Below are positions 6,401 through 50,712 of a DNA stretch of 64,000 nt, one piece after another (the stretch's first letter is position 1; each line of letters starts with the position of its first letter). A program made the translations under genes and the position numbers. The notes beneath the pieces were generated by a model. That model was not told the DNA's origin. It did not search any database and saw nothing but the letters and a program-made list of their open reading frames with translations. Source of the DNA: Mucilaginibacter sp. cycad4 (GTDB lineage: Bacteria > Bacteroidota > Bacteroidia > Sphingobacteriales > Sphingobacteriaceae); assembly GCF_034263275.1 (NCBI RefSeq), contig NZ_CP139559.1, positions 3,534,001 to 3,598,000 on the forward strand. The letters run 5' to 3'.

Positions 6401-6604
6401 AGCCCATAGCCGTTAACTTAGGAAGAAAAAGCGCGGAATTGTGCGATTCCCCTCTTGAGAGGGGCGGAGGGGTGTGTTTCTGCTTTGATAAGCTTGTAGC
6501 AGAAACACACCCCTGCCACCACTCGTTCCTCCGCGCCCTGCTCTCGAGAGGGGATTTTTAAAGCCCGTTGTTCAATTAATTCCTTAAGTTAACGGCTATG
6601 GGCT
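6401..6604. repeat. Dispersed composite palindrome, copy A
   Basis: Outer arms of about 24 bp (agcccatagccgttaactta at the left, inverse at 6580-6604) enclose ccctcttgagaggg, an inner inverted repeat (ggggtgtgtttctgct at 6469-6484 and its inverse at 6498-6513) and a right-hand ctctcgagagggg. Related copies lie at 44573-45211 and 47589-48912, where mobile elements split them. No ORF. The whole 6229-6709 gap holds only this repeat, the terminator and a GC-rich stretch of no recognised function. Confidence 0.75.
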
Positions 6605-44628: not shown

Positions 44629-44868
44629 GCTACTGTGTGTACACATCTTTTAAATTCTATCAATAATTGAAAAAAATGTCATTTCGAACGAACCTGGTGG
44701 AAGAATTAGCGCGCAGGGGGGTGAGGAGAAATCTTCTACGCCCTGCTTTTATAAGTATGATTGTAGAGCCTGATGTAGAAGATTTCTCTTTCGCCCCACT
44801 TCTTAGCCCGCCCCTGCTCAATCGAAATGACATTTTCTTTTATATAATACTTGTGTACACACTGTAGC
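44629..44868. mobile_element. MITE-like element with gctac(t/a)gtgtgtacaca ends
   Basis: 240 bp with 17-bp terminal inverted repeats (gctactgtgtgtacaca at 44629-44645; inverse at 44852-44868, one mismatch) and an 8-bp direct repeat ttgagagg on both sides (44621-44628, 44869-44876). Inside is a second perfect 15-bp inverted repeat (44673-44687 and 44822-44836, with tgtcatttcga) and a third (agaaatcttctac / gtagaagatttct). No transposase. An ORF reading across it is taken as chance. Confidence 0.75.
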
Positions 44869-44963
44869 TTGAGAGGGCGCGCGGAGGCACGAGTGATGGC
44901 AGGGGTGTGTTTCTGCTACAGGCTTATCAAAGCAGAAACACACCCCTCCACCCCTCTTGAGAG

Positions 44964-45157
44964 CAGGGCTGTTGCATTCTAATTTATGTTTCGCAAGTTC
45001 AAGCGTCCTTCGCTTGAATTATAACCAAAGTAAGCGTCCACGCTTACGTTTATAACATATTACGGGAGCGTGGACGCTCAATTAAGGCAAACGACCAAGC
45101 GTAGACGCTTAATCGTGCGTGTTATTAAGAACTGAATATTAGAATGCAACGGCCCTG
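44964..45157. mobile_element. MITE sharing the ends of the ISAs1-family IS
   Basis: 194 bp with terminal inverted repeats cagggctgttgcattctaa (44964-44982) and its inverse with one mismatch (45139-45157), the same ends as the IS at 47640-48802. The flanks are also identical to those of that IS: cccctcttgagag on the left and ctctcaagagggg on the right. It carries four small hairpins in place of a transposase: 44998-45018, 45030-45047, 45066-45079 and 45097-45110. Confidence 0.8.
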
Positions 45158-45203
45158 CTCTCAAGAGGGGAATCGCGCAATCCCGCGCTTTTTTCCCCTT
45201 AAG

Positions 45204-45641
45204 TTAACTGCCCTCTTCAACGTAATCGCTGCTGCGGGGCGCTTTCATAAACATTTCGCTTAGCGCTGCAGGTAATACCGCGAGTTTGCGTTTTTCCATA
45301 TCTATCCATGAACCCTCGGCATTTATTATCGCAGCTTTAACCCCATCGCCCCGGTACAGCTCGTGCCTGATTGCCCAGCGCGAACCATCAGGCCGGGATT
45401 TGATCAGCTCGCATGTTACTTTTACCTGCTCGTTAATCCCAATCTCGCGCAGGTAGATCAACTCTTCCCTGAATAATACAGGTCCTATTTTGTATTCATA
45501 AAGTGTAGGCAGCTTTAAGCCCAGGCTTTCAAGCATGGTGATACGCGCCTGTGCTGCAAGATCGGCATAGGCGGAGTGCCGCATGTGCTGGTTCGAGTCT
45601 ATCTGCGACCACAGCACCTGTCCTTCATAAAAAAACTCCAT
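45204..45641 (-). CDS. Hotdog-fold acyl-CoA thioesterase (4HBT type)
   Basis: A 145-residue single hotdog-domain protein. The 4HBT motif WSQIDSNQHMRHSAYADLA carries the catalytic Asp D15. The central strand pattern EELIYLREIGINEQVKVTCEL and GSRWAIRHELYRG fits YbgC/FadM-like thioesterases. It would hydrolyse acyl-CoA, perhaps to relieve CoA trapping. Start 13 bp downstream of etfA. The last codons (DYVEEGS) and the stop lie in the arm of dispersed repeat copy B, so the native C-terminus may have been replaced. Confidence 0.88.
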   Translation of the reverse strand: MEFFYEGQVLWSQIDSNQHMRHSAYADLAAQARITMLESLGLKLPTLYEYKIGPVLFREELIYLREIGINEQVKVTCELIKSRPDGSRWAIRHELYRGDGVKAAIINAEGSWIDMEKRKLAVLPAALSEMFMKAPRSSDYVEEGS

Positions 45642-45654
45642 AGCCTTGATTATT

Positions 45655-46632
45655 TTATTGATGATGTTCCTTAAATTTTTTGACTGCGGCTGTCAGCTTC
45701 GGTAAAATCTCCATTGCATCACCCACAACACCATAATTGGCTGCTTTAAAAAATGGGGCTTCGGGATCTTTATTGATCACTACAATAGTTTTTGAACCGT
45801 TAACCCCTGCCAGGTGCTGGATAGCCCCGGAGATCCCCACCGCGATATACAGGTTTGGGCGAACGGTGCCGCCTGTTTGCCCCACATGCTCATGATGCGG
45901 CCTCCAGTGCGAATCGGCCACCGGGCGCGAGCAGGCCGTAGCGGCACCCAACTCTTTTGCCAGGTCCTCCAGTATGCCCCAATTTTCAGGGCCTTTCAAA
46001 CCTCTACCTCCCGAAACAACCAGCTCGGCATCAGCAAGTGGTACCTCGCCAACTACTTTGTTCACCGATTTCACTTTTACGCCGAAATCGTTTTCGCTAA
46101 AAGTAATACCCAGCTGCTCAACAACTGCTTTACCCTCCAGCTTTTGAAGTGGAAAGGTGTTAGGCATCAGCATAATTACTTTTACCTCACTTACAATGTT
46201 TACATAGGCAAACGCTTTGCCCGAAAACACGGCCTTTTTAATCACAAAGCCTTTGTCTGTATCAGGATATGAAAGCGCTCCGGCTACCAGGCCAGCTTGT
46301 AACTTTACAGCCACCCGCGGGGCGACTGCCCTGCCTTTAACATCATGAAGGGTTACAATTATTTTACTATTCTCCTTTTGCGCTGCGGCTATTAATGCGC
46401 CGGCATAGGCCCTTGAATGCAGTTCGTCCAATCGGCCATCAGCAACGCGCAGCACTTTTTGCGCACCATACTGACCAAGGTTTTCCATTTCGGCAGCGGT
46501 AACGCTTCCTAAAGCAAGTGCGGTTACCGTAGTATCCATTTTTTGGGCTATTTGCGCGGCATATTGCACTGCTTCAAAGCTTTGTTTTTTTATAATTCCT
46601 CCGGTATGTTCTACCAATACTATTACAGACAT
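45655..46632 (-). CDS. etfA: Electron transfer flavoprotein subunit alpha
   Basis: A 325-residue ETF alpha chain that accepts electrons from acyl-CoA dehydrogenase through FAD. The C-terminal FAD domain has [13 protein letters not shown], then [19 protein letters not shown] and [20 protein letters not shown] with [20 protein letters not shown], the family signature. The N-terminal ETF domain spans about 1-180. It is 146 bp after etfB; the gap contains a near-perfect 22-bp palindrome at 46696-46717 built on attccctccc. Confidence 0.96.
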
Positions 46633-46695
46633 TTTTTATTTTTTTTAGTTGAGATGTTCCGGTGCGGACACCATAAGTGTTCAGTAGATTTTTTA

Positions 46696-46717
46696 ATTCC
46701 CTCCCCTGGGAGGGAAT
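46696..46717. repeat. Intercistronic palindrome between etfB and etfA
   Basis: A 22-bp near-palindrome starting attccctccc and ending gggagggaat, followed by cgcacaatc. It resembles the gattcccctcttgagagggg core of the dispersed composite repeat and is probably a reduced member of that family. Confidence 0.5.
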
Positions 46718-46778
46718 CGCACAATCTCCATGCTTTTCAAATCTTCCGGGCACCTATCGCCGGGCAATAAACATGATA

Positions 46779-47522
46779 TTAAATAACCTTAGCTTCCGTA
46801 TGCAACAGTTGCACCAGTTCATCCAGGTTGTCCGGGTTTACCAGTTTGATACCCGACTTGGCAGGCGGTAACTCGTAGGACAATATTTCGGTTACAGCAG
46901 TTATTCCTGAAGGCGTAATAACCTTTAACGGACGGGTACGGGCAGCCATTATCCCGCGCATATTGGGGATCCGGGCTTCGGCCACACCTTTTTGGCAGGA
47001 AATTACTACCGGCAAATTACAGGCATCTGTTTCTTCGCCGCCTTCAATTTCACGTGTTACCACAGCAGTATTGGCCTCTATGCTGATCCCGGTTGCAAAA
47101 CCAATGTAATCGAGATCAAGCAATTCGGCCAGCATGGCGCCTGTAGTTCCGTTATTGTAATCGATAGATTCTTTGCCACATAAGATGAGATCATAGCCAA
47201 CCCCGGCAGCATATCCAGCTATATAATGAGCGATTTCATAAGGGTCGTTGCTCTCTGCATCGATGCGGATGGCTTCATCGCCACCCAACGCCAGCGCTTT
47301 CCTGATCACGGGCTCAACATCGGCCCTGCCCACAGTTACCAGGTGAACATCGGTGGCTATACCGTTTTCTTTTAATTCGATAGCTTTGATCAACGCATAC
47401 CATTCATCGTACGGGTTGATCACCCAGGTAACACCATCACTGTTAACCGAGGTATTATTATTTTTCAATACAATTTTGGTGCTCGTGTCCGGCACCTGGC
47501 TTATGCACACTAATATTTTCAT
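46779..47522 (-). CDS. etfB: Electron transfer flavoprotein subunit beta
   Basis: A 247-residue ETF beta chain. It begins KILVCISQVPDTSTKIVLKN, followed by NPYDEWYALIKAIELKENG, the AMP-binding region LILCGKESIDYNNGTTGAMLAELL, and the signature VTREIEGGEETDACNLPVVISCQKGVAEARIPNM at about 153-186. It pairs with etfA downstream. An ISAs1-family IS separates it from the acyl-CoA dehydrogenase gene, so it may now depend on its own promoter. Confidence 0.96.
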   Translation of the reverse strand: MKILVCISQVPDTSTKIVLKNNNTSVNSDGVTWVINPYDEWYALIKAIELKENGIATDVHLVTVGRADVEPVIRKALALGGDEAIRIDAESNDPYEIAHYIAGYAAGVGYDLILCGKESIDYNNGTTGAMLAELLDLDYIGFATGISIEANTAVVTREIEGGEETDACNLPVVISCQKGVAEARIPNMRGIMAARTRPLKVITPSGITAVTEILSYELPPAKSGIKLVNPDNLDELVQLLHTEAKVI

Positions 47523-47639
47523 TATCAGAATTTTGTTTTTTTAGGTTGATATTATTTAGGGAAATGAAGACTCCATGCCGCTATTATCGTTAACACAAGG
47601 AGTAAAAAGCGTGGGCTTGTGCGATTCCCCTCTTGAGAG

Positions 47640-48802
47640 CAGGGCTGTTGCATTCTAATTTAATAGTTGTTTCAACCTGTTGATATCGTTGCAAACAAGC
47701 CTTTGCGCTTGTGCGAGGTTTGGGTAATCATTTATTCTAAATACATTAATAACTATGTTTCTGAACACAGAAGTATTTTCAGGCGCATTGGATGTTCTAA
47801 TTCGTGAAGCGTCTTCGTTAAATGTCACGTCCTTTACCCAATGAAGACTGTTTTCTATACTCCAATGGCTTTTAATACCATGGCAGAATATTTGCGCATT
47901 ACCGATTAAGCTACTGATGAAAAAGGCGTATTCTTCCCGGATACGTCCTTTTTCTTTTACCCAGCGATGCACTTTAATAAGTTGGCTTACCCCAGCCCAT
48001 GTGTTACTGATTTCCTCTGTTCCCGGGTACACCCAAACTGTTCTACGTTCTATTCGCCCTTTGTTTTTCAACAACTCAACAAACTTACTACAAACCATTG
48101 CCTCGTCCGATGTAATGGTTTCGATCTTTTTGTAAAGGTTCTTTTGATTCTTCTTCACACCTATTATATAATTGTTATCTGTATCAATAATAGCCTCTAC
48201 CGTTTTTTTTGACAATGTAATGCGTCAAGTGTAAACGTTACCCCCTGTAATCCTAAACTGGAAATAAGCTGCTGAACTACAGAGATTTCACTTTGTTTTG
48301 AGTTGTCAACTAAACCATGGCCAACGACTTGATTACTCCTGCTACTATACAAGCTTACCAGGCTTACAAATCGTTGTTTGTCAAGAGAATAATCGCTCAT
48401 CGTCCCTTTCATTGCCTTACCATCTATATGTAGCCATTCATTTTTAGACAAATCAATATGCTGACTGGCCCATTTATGGAAACTCTCATTTAAGCTGTTA
48501 AAGTCTAAATCTTGTATTACACGTCTTATAGTATAAAAGCTTGGAAGGCGGGCTTTATTAGGCTGAAAGAAGGCCAAAAGATCGACTTCATTCCGCTTTA
48601 TAAAATCACCCATCGAACGATAGCCATGATAACCGCTCATTGTACTCATTAACACAAGCAACAGAATGAAAGTCTGGTCATGGCGCTGGCCTGCCTTTCG
48701 CCTTATATCCGGTAACTCTGATAAATACGCTAATATGCTCTTATCCATCCTAACTTTTTTGACCTCAAGTTAACTTATAATATTTAGAATGCAACAGCCC
48801 TG
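47640..48802 (-). mobile_element. ISAs1-family insertion sequence
   Basis: 1163 bp with 19-bp perfect terminal inverted repeats cagggctgttgcattctaa (47640-47658) and inverse (48784-48802). The flanks cccctcttgagag and ctctcaagagggg continue the inverted repeat to 32 bp. CAGGG ends and the transposase type fit the ISAs1 family. It lies between the acyl-CoA dehydrogenase and etfB genes. Confidence 0.85.
47655..48748 (-). pseudogene. ISAs1-family transposase, frameshifted in a poly-A run
   Basis: The N-terminal part (from 48748, 183 residues: LSELPDIRRKAGQRHDQTF, then WLHIDGKAMKG with the first catalytic Asp, and FTLDALHCQKK with the second) stops just after the A run. The C-terminal part (to 47655) carries DNNYIIGVKKNQ and SHWSIENSLHWVKDVTFNEDASR with the expected Glu. 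The run is eight A on the coding strand (plus-strand T 48203-48210); nine A would restore QKKTVEAII. Polymerase or ribosome slippage could still make full protein, so inactivity is not certain. Confidence 0.85.
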
Positions 48803-48915
48803 CTCTCAAGAGGGGTGGAGGGGTGTGTTATTCTACGTGCGGCTTATTGCTTGTATAACACACCCCTGCCACCACTCGTTCCTTCGCGCCCCCTCTCAAG
48901 AGGGGATTAAAAAAG

Positions 48916-50712
48916 CTAAAAGCAATATCTATTTTCAGCGATGAGCTTTGCAGCAATATTTCTGCGTGCCTGGGTGGTATTGATGTCTTCTGTTTTGGTG
49001 AAACGCTTCAACCCCATCAGCATCATCCTTCTTTCGTCGCCTTCGGCAAATGAGTTTAGCGCCTCCTTGCCCGATTTGGCAATGTGTTCAGCAGCATCAT
49101 TGATGTACACCCGCATCATATCCAGTTGTTCTTTACAGGCATCTTCGCCCCTTAAACCAACCAGTTTCTCCACCCTCAACTGCAGCGATTCGCTCACATA
49201 AAGCTCAATCAGCATATCGGCCAGGTTCATCAATACTTCCTGCTCTTTGCTCAATTGCGTCATTAGTTTTTGAACAGCCGCACCGGCTACCATCAATATG
49301 GCCTTTTTAAAATTGGCTATGTATTTTTTCTCTTTGGTAAACAAGCCATCCTCTTCGGCTGCGCCAAAATCGGGGATGCTCATCAATTCACCCGCCACTT
49401 TCTGGGCCGGCCCCATCAGGTCGAGCTCGCCTTTCATGGCGCGTTTCAGCATCATGTCAACCGTTAACAAGCGGTTAATTTCGTTGGTACCCTCAAAGAT
49501 GCGGTTGATCCGTGAATCGCGGTACGACCTGTCCATCGGCGCCTCGGCGCTGTAGCCCATGCCACCGTAAATCTGTACACCTTCATCGGTTACATAATCC
49601 AAAACTTCCGATGCGTGAACTTTAAGGATCGCCGCTTCTATTGCGTATTGCTCAGTCCCTTTTAATTTGGCTTTGGTTTCATCAAGGCCGGATGCTATTA
49701 ACATTTCTGTAGCCTCCTCCATATTCTGACTGGCACGGTACACCGCCGATTCCGCGGCATAGGTACGGATAGCCTGCTCAGCCAGTTTATATTTTATCGC
49801 TCCGTATTTGGAAATAGCCCGACCGAACTGTTCCCGTTCATTGGCGTAACGTACCGATGAGGTGATCACATCCTTACTTGCGCCAACTGTGCCGCCTCCT
49901 AATTTAATGCGGCCAAGATTCAGTATATTAACGGCTATCTTAAAACCATTCTGCCGTTCGGAAAGCAGGTTTTCAACCGGCACTTTGCAATCGTTAAAAA
50001 ATACCTGGCGGGTTGAGCTGCCCTTGATCCCCATTTTGTGTTCTTCCGTATTGAGAGAAAGTCCCTCAAAATCCTTTTCAACAATAAATGCGCTCAGGTT
50101 TTCATCATCGTCTATCTTGGCGAAAACGGTAAACACATCTGCGAAACCCGCGTTGGTAATCCACATTTTTTGCCCGGTGATGAGATAATGTTTGCCATCG
50201 GCCGAAAGCTTTGCCCTGGTTTTACCCGAATTGGCATCCGAACCCGCAGCAGGCTCTGTAAGGCAATAAGCCCCTTTCCACTCACCGCTTGCCAGCTTAG
50301 GAATATATTTTTGTTTTTGGGCATCATTGCCATAGTATAATATAGGCATGGTTCCGATACCCGTATGTGCCGAAAAAGCAACGGAAAATGAGTGACCGGC
50401 ACCCAGCTTTTCAGTAACCAGCATGGCAGTTTTAAAATCCTTACCAAAACCGCCGTATTCTTCGGGCACGGAAATGCCTAACAATCCAAGTGCCCCTGCC
50501 TCGTCCATTAAATGACGCATTAATCCCTCCTCCTGTTCGTCAATGCGCTGCAAATTTGGGGTTACCTGCTGTGCCAAAAAATTGGTACATGTTTCGGCGA
50601 TCATCAACTGCTCTTCATTCCATTCTTCAGGAATAAAAACGCTATCGGCGGAAGTTTCCCTGATCAGAAACTCACCTCCTTTTATGGCTTTCATCGGTTC
50701 TGTGGCATTCAT
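48916..50712 (-). CDS. fadE: Acyl-CoA dehydrogenase (FadE type, long form)
   Basis: A 598-residue FAD enzyme for the first beta-oxidation step. ACAD signatures: WKGAYCLTEPAAGSDANSG (about 137-155), KMWITNAGFADVFTVFAK, and IYGGMGYSAEAPMDRSYRDS leading to RINRIFEGTNEINR with the catalytic Glu near 410. A further C-terminal domain of about 170 residues fits the long ACADs of Bacillus FadE and mitochondrial VLCAD/ACAD9. Electrons go to EtfAB encoded downstream, now behind an IS. Upstream lies a 29-bp element shared with the fadL-like gene. Confidence 0.94.
   Translation of the reverse strand: MNATEPMKAIKGGEFLIRETSADSVFIPEEWNEEQLMIAETCTNFLAQQVTPNLQRIDEQEEGLMRHLMDEAGALGLLGISVPEEYGGFGKDFKTAMLVTEKLGAGHSFSVAFSAHTGIGTMPILYYGNDAQKQKYIPKLASGEWKGAYCLTEPAAGSDANSGKTRAKLSADGKHYLITGQKMWITNAGFADVFTVFAKIDDDENLSAFIVEKDFEGLSLNTEEHKMGIKGSSTRQVFFNDCKVPVENLLSERQNGFKIAVNILNLGRIKLGGGTVGASKDVITSSVRYANEREQFGRAISKYGAIKYKLAEQAIRTYAAESAVYRASQNMEEATEMLIASGLDETKAKLKGTEQYAIEAAILKVHASEVLDYVTDEGVQIYGGMGYSAEAPMDRSYRDSRINRIFEGTNEINRLLTVDMMLKRAMKGELDLMGPAQKVAGELMSIPDFGAAEEDGLFTKEKKYIANFKKAILMVAGAAVQKLMTQLSKEQEVLMNLADMLIELYVSESLQLRVEKLVGLRGEDACKEQLDMMRVYINDAAEHIAKSGKEALNSFAEGDERRMMLMGLKRFTKTEDINTTQARRNIAAKLIAENRYCF

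Follow-up and report, generated by a model that had tools for sequence, protein, structure and literature searches.

A Target-Specific ISAs1-Family Insertion Sequence and a MITE With Its Ends at the Palindromic Ends of a REP-Like Repeat in Mucilaginibacter

Introduction

Why do an insertion sequence (IS) and a much smaller MITE, situated on either side of one etf locus, occupy the same point of the same palindromic repeat, and where do the elements end and their target begin? This question is raised by a 64,000-nucleotide stretch of the Mucilaginibacter sp. cycad4 genome (hereafter the window; its genome, G000, is a single contig of 7.11 Mb). A sequence-only reading of the window had offered two answers, namely that the IS family targets the palindrome precisely, or that the flanks of both elements belong to 32-bp ends. 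From comparisons within the genome and across the genus, we hold it to be highly probable that a target-specific ISAs1-family IS and a MITE with the ends of this IS account for the locus, by the mechanism proposed below. The features concerned are collected in Table 1.

Elements and Target Repeat

The boundaries given earlier for the IS, the MITE and their common 19-bp ends hold, except that one end of the MITE has a single substitution (CAGGGCCGTTGC...). The IS has the short terminal inverted repeats starting with CAGGG that mark the ISAs1 family, with CAGGGCTGTTGCATTCTAA at both ends, and CAGGG ends are also found in ISAs1-type relatives. Sequence common to the MITE and the IS is limited to these ends; internal derivation of the MITE from the present IS was considered and rejected, as no common stretch of at least 10 bp is found beyond them. 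The MITE has no coding capacity and matches the IS in its ends, target and duplication length, as a MITE of this IS should. A census of the genome gives 17 IS copies, each exactly 1163 bp long and at most nine substitutions from the consensus, and five MITEs of 194–197 bp. One of the MITE copies (L065) forms a single long hairpin of -93.3 kcal/mol (RNA parameters) and contains several AGCGTCYACGCT palindromes.

The window's IS and MITE are both held by the 16-bp sequence CCCCTCTYRAGAGGGG, which is the palindromic end of a dispersed REP-like element. In the window this palindrome occurs at 10 places with at most two mismatches, against 0.62 expected in shuffles. The REP-like element is about 105 bp long and reads, from outer end to outer end, gattCCCCTCTTGAGAGGGG-(C/T)GGAGGGGTGTGTT-variable core-AACACACCCC-~30 bp-CCCCTCTYRAGAGGGGatt, with a 16-bp near-palindrome at each end. 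The unoccupied palindromic element already recognized as copy A is such a REP-like element. A shortened REP elsewhere in the genome (L081, G000:C1:6273616-6274695) has lost its right part, ends in ...CACCCCTGCTCTCAAGAGGGGAATC and is possibly a deletion product. RAYT (Y1) genes were rejected as the source of the repeat: the genome has six Y1_Tnp (RAYT-like) genes (L099–L104), the palindrome is absent from all six fetched loci and flanks none of the genes, and the repeat does not stand beside a Y1 transposase gene as a RAYT-mobilised REP would. No Rfam family matched in 44800–48950, and a literature search with the palindrome sequence returned no paper.

Table 1. Coordinates of the elements, repeats, duplicates and reading frames in the window, and the insertion sites outside REP ends in sister species
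Feature	Position	Strand	Remarks
ISAs1-family IS, 1163 bp	47640..48802	-	one of 17 near-identical genome copies
Terminal inverted repeat CAGGGCTGTTGCATTCTAA	47640..47658	+	19 bp
Other-end terminal inverted repeat	48784..48802	-	identical to CAGGGCTGTTGCATTCTAA
MITE, 194 bp	44964..45157	+	IS ends; long single hairpin
Unoccupied REP-like element (copy A)	6449..6553	+	palindromic ends 6449-6464, 6538-6553
Remainder of IS-struck REP-like element	48813..48905	+	other palindromic end CCCCTCTCAAGAGGGG at 48890-48905
MITE-interrupted REP-like element	44869..45170	-	reverse orientation, far end degenerate, start approximate
Outer IS duplicate	47630..47639	+	CTCTTGAGAG, ancestral, same in four sister species
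Inner IS duplicate	48803..48812	+	now CTCTCAAGAG, derived; ancestral CTCTTGAGAG
Inner MITE duplicate	44954..44963	+	now CTCTTGAGAG on +, derived
Outer MITE duplicate	45158..45167	+	CTCTCAAGAG on +, ancestral form
Transposase ORF1, 183 aa	48197..48748	-	NF033564 positions 1-151
Transposase ORF2	47655..48215	-	NF033564 positions 150-313; -1 frame after ORF1
A8 slippage run (T8 on +)	48203..48210	-	at CQKK
Non-REP IS insertion	G700		CCC^CTGTTAAAAG^GGA
Non-REP IS insertion	G700		GCC^CCCCCTATAG^GGG
Non-REP IS insertion	G704		CCC^CTTTTAGTTG^GGG

Insertion Rule

The same point of the palindrome is occupied by all 22 elements of the genome (17/17 IS and 5/5 MITE), and in one REP (L062) each end holds an IS. 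Known REP ends make up about 0.02% of the genome, and chance is thereby excluded. Identical direct 10-bp duplications lie beside 20 of the 22 copies, mostly CTCTCAAGAG, CTCTCGAGAG or CTCTTGAGAG, with CTCCCAAGAG and CCCTGAAGAG once each, and for this reason the flanks are duplicated target that lies outside the element ends. ISAs1-family elements usually duplicate 8–10 bp of their target. The 10 bp found here, in 20/22 elements of the genome and 41/52 of the genus, agrees with this.

The ends are carried by 12 of 149 genomes of the genus, the window's included. Among the sister species, 12 IS copies are present in G704 and two in G700, with ORF1 identities of 69% and 73%, respectively; in a further six genomes, all of which carry MITEs, ORF1 detects no IS. 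The genus comparison comprises 52 complete elements, 31 IS and 21 MITE, and those that lack identical 10-bp duplications show small changes or rearrangement. In the 41 elements with identical duplications, C at positions -2 and 0 and G at positions 9, 10 and 11 are invariant; 40 of the 41 have C at -3, and 39 have G at 12. The insertion consensus is CCC^CTCTYRAGAG^GGG and the rule CCC^C-N8-G^GGG. In this notation, CCC^CTCTNNNNNG^GGG is a linear, non-palindromic form of site with the C/G frame, and CCCCTCTTGAGAGGGG is a target form with paired half-sites and an unscrambled core. Use of REP ends is not exclusive in the other genomes, since copies lie outside them in G700 (2/2; only 11 exact palindromes in the genome) and in G704 (1/12; 81 exact palindromes). 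These three insertions, all IS and all in sister species, retain the C/G frame, which indicates that the frame of C-run and G-run is essential and the REP core preferred.

The etf locus between the window's two insertions is conserved in the genus and provides matching empty sites, with the joining of flanks confined to intergenic sites. An unoccupied IS site lies upstream of etfB in G702, G690, G234 and G708; its palindrome is TTG-centred in all four species, and in G690 a single substitution falls outside the duplicated 10 bp. G698 has the MITE site, likewise unoccupied, with the sequence CACCGCTCTCAAGAGGGGAATC. In the same genome the position orthologous to the IS site of the window holds a decayed MITE-like sequence (L280), and the same REP end has therefore been struck in two lineages.

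Precise targeting of the palindrome is thus borne out by 22/22 copies, by nearly all sister-species copies, by exact 10-bp duplications and by orthologous empty sites. The other answer offered, that CCCCTCTTGAGAG belongs to true 32-bp ends of the IS and the MITE, with the palindrome a relic of the element and not its target, draws on the perfectly inverted 13-bp flanks of the two window copies and has become scarcely credible: next to the 19-bp ends, 20/22 copies have direct 10-bp repeats of several sequences, the duplications in sister species are wholly different (CTGTTAAAAG, CTTTTAGTTG), so that CTCTCGAGAG, CTCCCAAGAG, CCCTGAAGAG, CTGTTAAAAG or CTTTTAGTTG stand as direct repeats outside the 19-bp ends elsewhere, and orthologous sites hold empty palindromes. 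Judged from these comparisons, the apparent 32-bp ends arose secondarily and only in the window's two copies. It is also improbable, to a lesser degree, that the transposase recognizes the REP element or an extruded hairpin instead of a linear pair of C/G half-sites. All 22 insertions are within REP ends despite 26 other free C4N8G4 sites (of 71 free sites in the genome, 45 are REP-type; p ~0.0007 under equal preference), as such recognition would explain, but the three non-REP insertions keep only the C/G frame, and several insertion sites of a Scytonema relative (see below) have no internal hairpin and are still bounded by C..G.

The preferred explanation is target choice by a linear frame: each insertion duplicates exactly the 10 bp enclosed by a C-run and a G-run (CCC^C-N8-G^GGG), as the flanking sequences show. 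In the genus, the frame with its preferred core, CTCTYRAGAG, is available mainly as the palindromic ends of the REP-like element, so that the IS accumulates in REP ends and spares genes. From the symmetry of the insertion site, we infer that both transposase subunits of the synaptic complex may read the half-site CCC^CTCT, inverted and about one helical turn apart; the palindrome would be an ideal target because both would read the same half-site. The transposase would be an ORF1-ORF2 fusion made by slippage on the A8 run. The common ends, target and duplication length suggest that it mobilises the MITE in trans, which in the six sister genomes with MITEs and no detectable IS could therefore be only historical. 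In the window's two copies, the inner duplicate would after insertion have been replaced by the outer one's reverse complement, with fold-back templating or ectopic gene conversion as the most likely route.

Altered Flanks in the Window

The window's IS and MITE are alone among the 22 elements in having duplicates that differ, and both are altered alike. Their 13-bp borders are CCCCTCTTGAGAG (left) and CTCTCAAGAGGGG (right). The sequence-only reading was right about these sequences, which it described as identical flanks, but cccctcttgagag and ctctcaagagggg are inverted and not direct repeats. Read along the REP, the outer duplicate is CTCTTGAGAG, as in empty sites, and the inner one is its reverse complement, CTCTCAAGAG (TG to CA). 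Flanks and ends together form a perfect 32-bp inverted repeat, which in the MITE is perfect save for the one end substitution. Because the orthologous empty sites show the outer form, the inner-duplicate change of two adjacent bases is, by this comparison, derived. In G702 a further example (L230) shows TG to CA accompanied by an AG insertion. As a candidate cause, inversion between the MITE and the IS of the window was worked through and discarded, since it would yield matching duplications.

Fold-back templating, for which the arms are nearly complementary, or conversion from a CTCTCAAGAG-flanked copy would together probably explain the inner duplicates, a model based on the two window copies and the one in G702. 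It is unlikely that point mutations, arising independently at a central dinucleotide prone to change, have done so. The centre is freely TG, CA or CG among copies and one-step mismatched duplications exist (L236), both of which speak for mutation; however, mutation would have had to alter two neighbouring bases, on the inner side and in the same direction, at each of two sites 2.7 kb apart, none of the 20 other genome copies has such changes, and the TG to CA change with AG insertion in G702 is a concerted one.

Transposase and Putative Slippage Run

The two transposase ORFs score 108.8 bits (ORF1) and 150.9 bits (ORF2) against the ISAs1 model NF033564 (cut-off 70, model length 314), which assigns the IS to this family. 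Inspection of the DDE triad places its first two acidic residues in ORF1 (HIDGKA, TLDALHC) and the E in ORF2 (HWSIEN). The ORFs meet at CAA AAA AAA CGG, where a -1 shift or one added A would lead to CQKKTVEAI, and the transposase would by implication be a recoded ORF1-ORF2 fusion. The A8 run and the split are kept in 17/17 IS copies, with no copy in an intact frame, and also in both sister ISs (G700 73% aa, G704 69% aa). The closest relative outside the genus, from a Flavobacteriales MAG (59%), has kept the A8 and has identical 19-bp ends. Relatives in several phyla (31–59%) have A7 or A8 at the same codon and likewise need a shift; among the distant ones A8 needs -1 and A7 needs +1, and one A9 copy and members without a run are in frame. 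A single transposase ORF is usual in the ISAs1 family but not universal. Here two ORFs are found in all 17 copies, and since the same split is frequent in close relatives, it is treated as variation inside the family and not as grounds for exclusion.

That the split is a plain inactivating frameshift, with a lost intact copy having spread all the others in trans, is very improbable. It would agree with the lack of an intact frame in 17 copies, yet the same run and split recur in independent ISs of two sister species at 69–73% aa and in other phyla at 31–59%. An A7/A8 run at the same codon suggests conserved transcriptional slippage, which fits better than ribosomal -1 frameshifting because A7 and A8 coexist and a 2016 review (PMC5009743) knew of no IS with +1 ribosomal frameshifting. 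Slippage on A-runs in ISs is documented in the accessible portion of Baranov (2005; PMC1088944), in which A8–A10 runs join two transposase ORFs and are conserved among copies, as here; that portion does not name ISAs1, whereas the present run is traced across the family and may be a ready case of conserved transposase recoding. In the transposase tree, which has few supported forks and four wrongly picked rows (L170, L188, L190 and L269), slip and non-slip forms are interspersed.

Relatives and Known Systems

Target data for more distant ISAs1 elements come from the best 80 loci, a biased sample, and the patterns are leads. In Scytonema sp. NIES-4073, a relative (41%; L134–L160) has exact 19- or 20-bp duplications in 21/25 copies, twice the usual length for the ISAs1 family; 20/21 start with C and 20/21 end with G, mostly inside C-runs and G-runs. 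Duplications of 20 or 19 bp are found again, among these best 80 loci, in related ISs of Scytonema hyalinum, Leptolyngbyaceae, Nostoc and Amazonocrinis. A Planktothrix relative has 9–10-bp duplications with mostly C..G boundaries, and the single-ORF ISAs1 elements of G400 and G700 have 9–10-bp duplications without the C/G rule. It is conceivable, and we put it forward tentatively, that a widespread branch of ISAs1 uses two inverted half-sites, C^C and G^G, at a spacing set by the transposase, that palindromes are hit for such pairs and that the duplicates tend to symmetrise; the spacing would be about one helical turn here (10 bp) and about two in the cyanobacterial relatives (19–20 bp). If this is true, independent palindromic repeats in different phyla would be struck because such half-site pairs lie inside them, and duplicates beside insertions would tend toward perfect inverted repeats. 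One-turn and two-turn duplications within one family would also make possible a direct structural test of strand-transfer spacing.

The IS resembles the ISAs1 family (NF033564) in its model match over both ORFs, CAGGG ends and 10-bp target duplication, and differs in its A8-split transposase and strict CCC^C-N8-G^GGG targeting. Insertion of ISs into REPs is already known: the REP-specific ISs in 'type 1 association' include ISPsy8, ISPa11, ISPpu9, ISPpu10, ISRm22 and ISRm19 (Tobes and Pareja, 2006; PMC1525189), a paper from which the word ISAs1 is absent. As in those systems, 100% of the copies of one genome (22/22) lie at the same REP point, and ISRm22 likewise inserts on the axis of a palindrome with some non-matching duplications. 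The present case differs in having a MITE with the same target, a 10-bp duplication and a rule exposed by non-REP insertions in sister species. For ISPlr1 and its ISAs1 relatives in Planktothrix, the authors suggest, in the accessible part of their account, that REP-like repeats may direct these elements (PMC9366434), a similar link; the exact target and duplication are absent from that part. A search of the literature for ISAs1 frameshifting or target specificity, with subscription journals mostly outside its reach, found nothing stating either. What is added here is the exact rule, the matching empty sites, the common MITE, the symmetrised flanks and the conserved slippage run. Dozens of natural insertions, with empty sites to match, show the target choice of a DDE transposase at single-base resolution, which suggests that some transposases use palindromic repeats as safe harbours through a simple symmetric half-site rule.

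Possible Rearrangements Between Copies

Two IS copies of the genome have identical haplotypes and complementary REP junctions. One, at 4.50 Mb (L071, G000:C1:4503027-4505189), has the arrangement REP-inner/IS/REP-inner inverted, and the other, at 6.29 Mb (L078, G000:C1:6286090-6288252), has the arrangement outer/IS/outer; from their structure, they look like the two joints that IS-IS recombination would leave after inverting about 1.8 Mb. In G704, an IS that has an outer REP flank on either side and whose duplications are unequal (L240, G704:C1:6779780-6781780) is likely another joint of an IS-mediated rearrangement.
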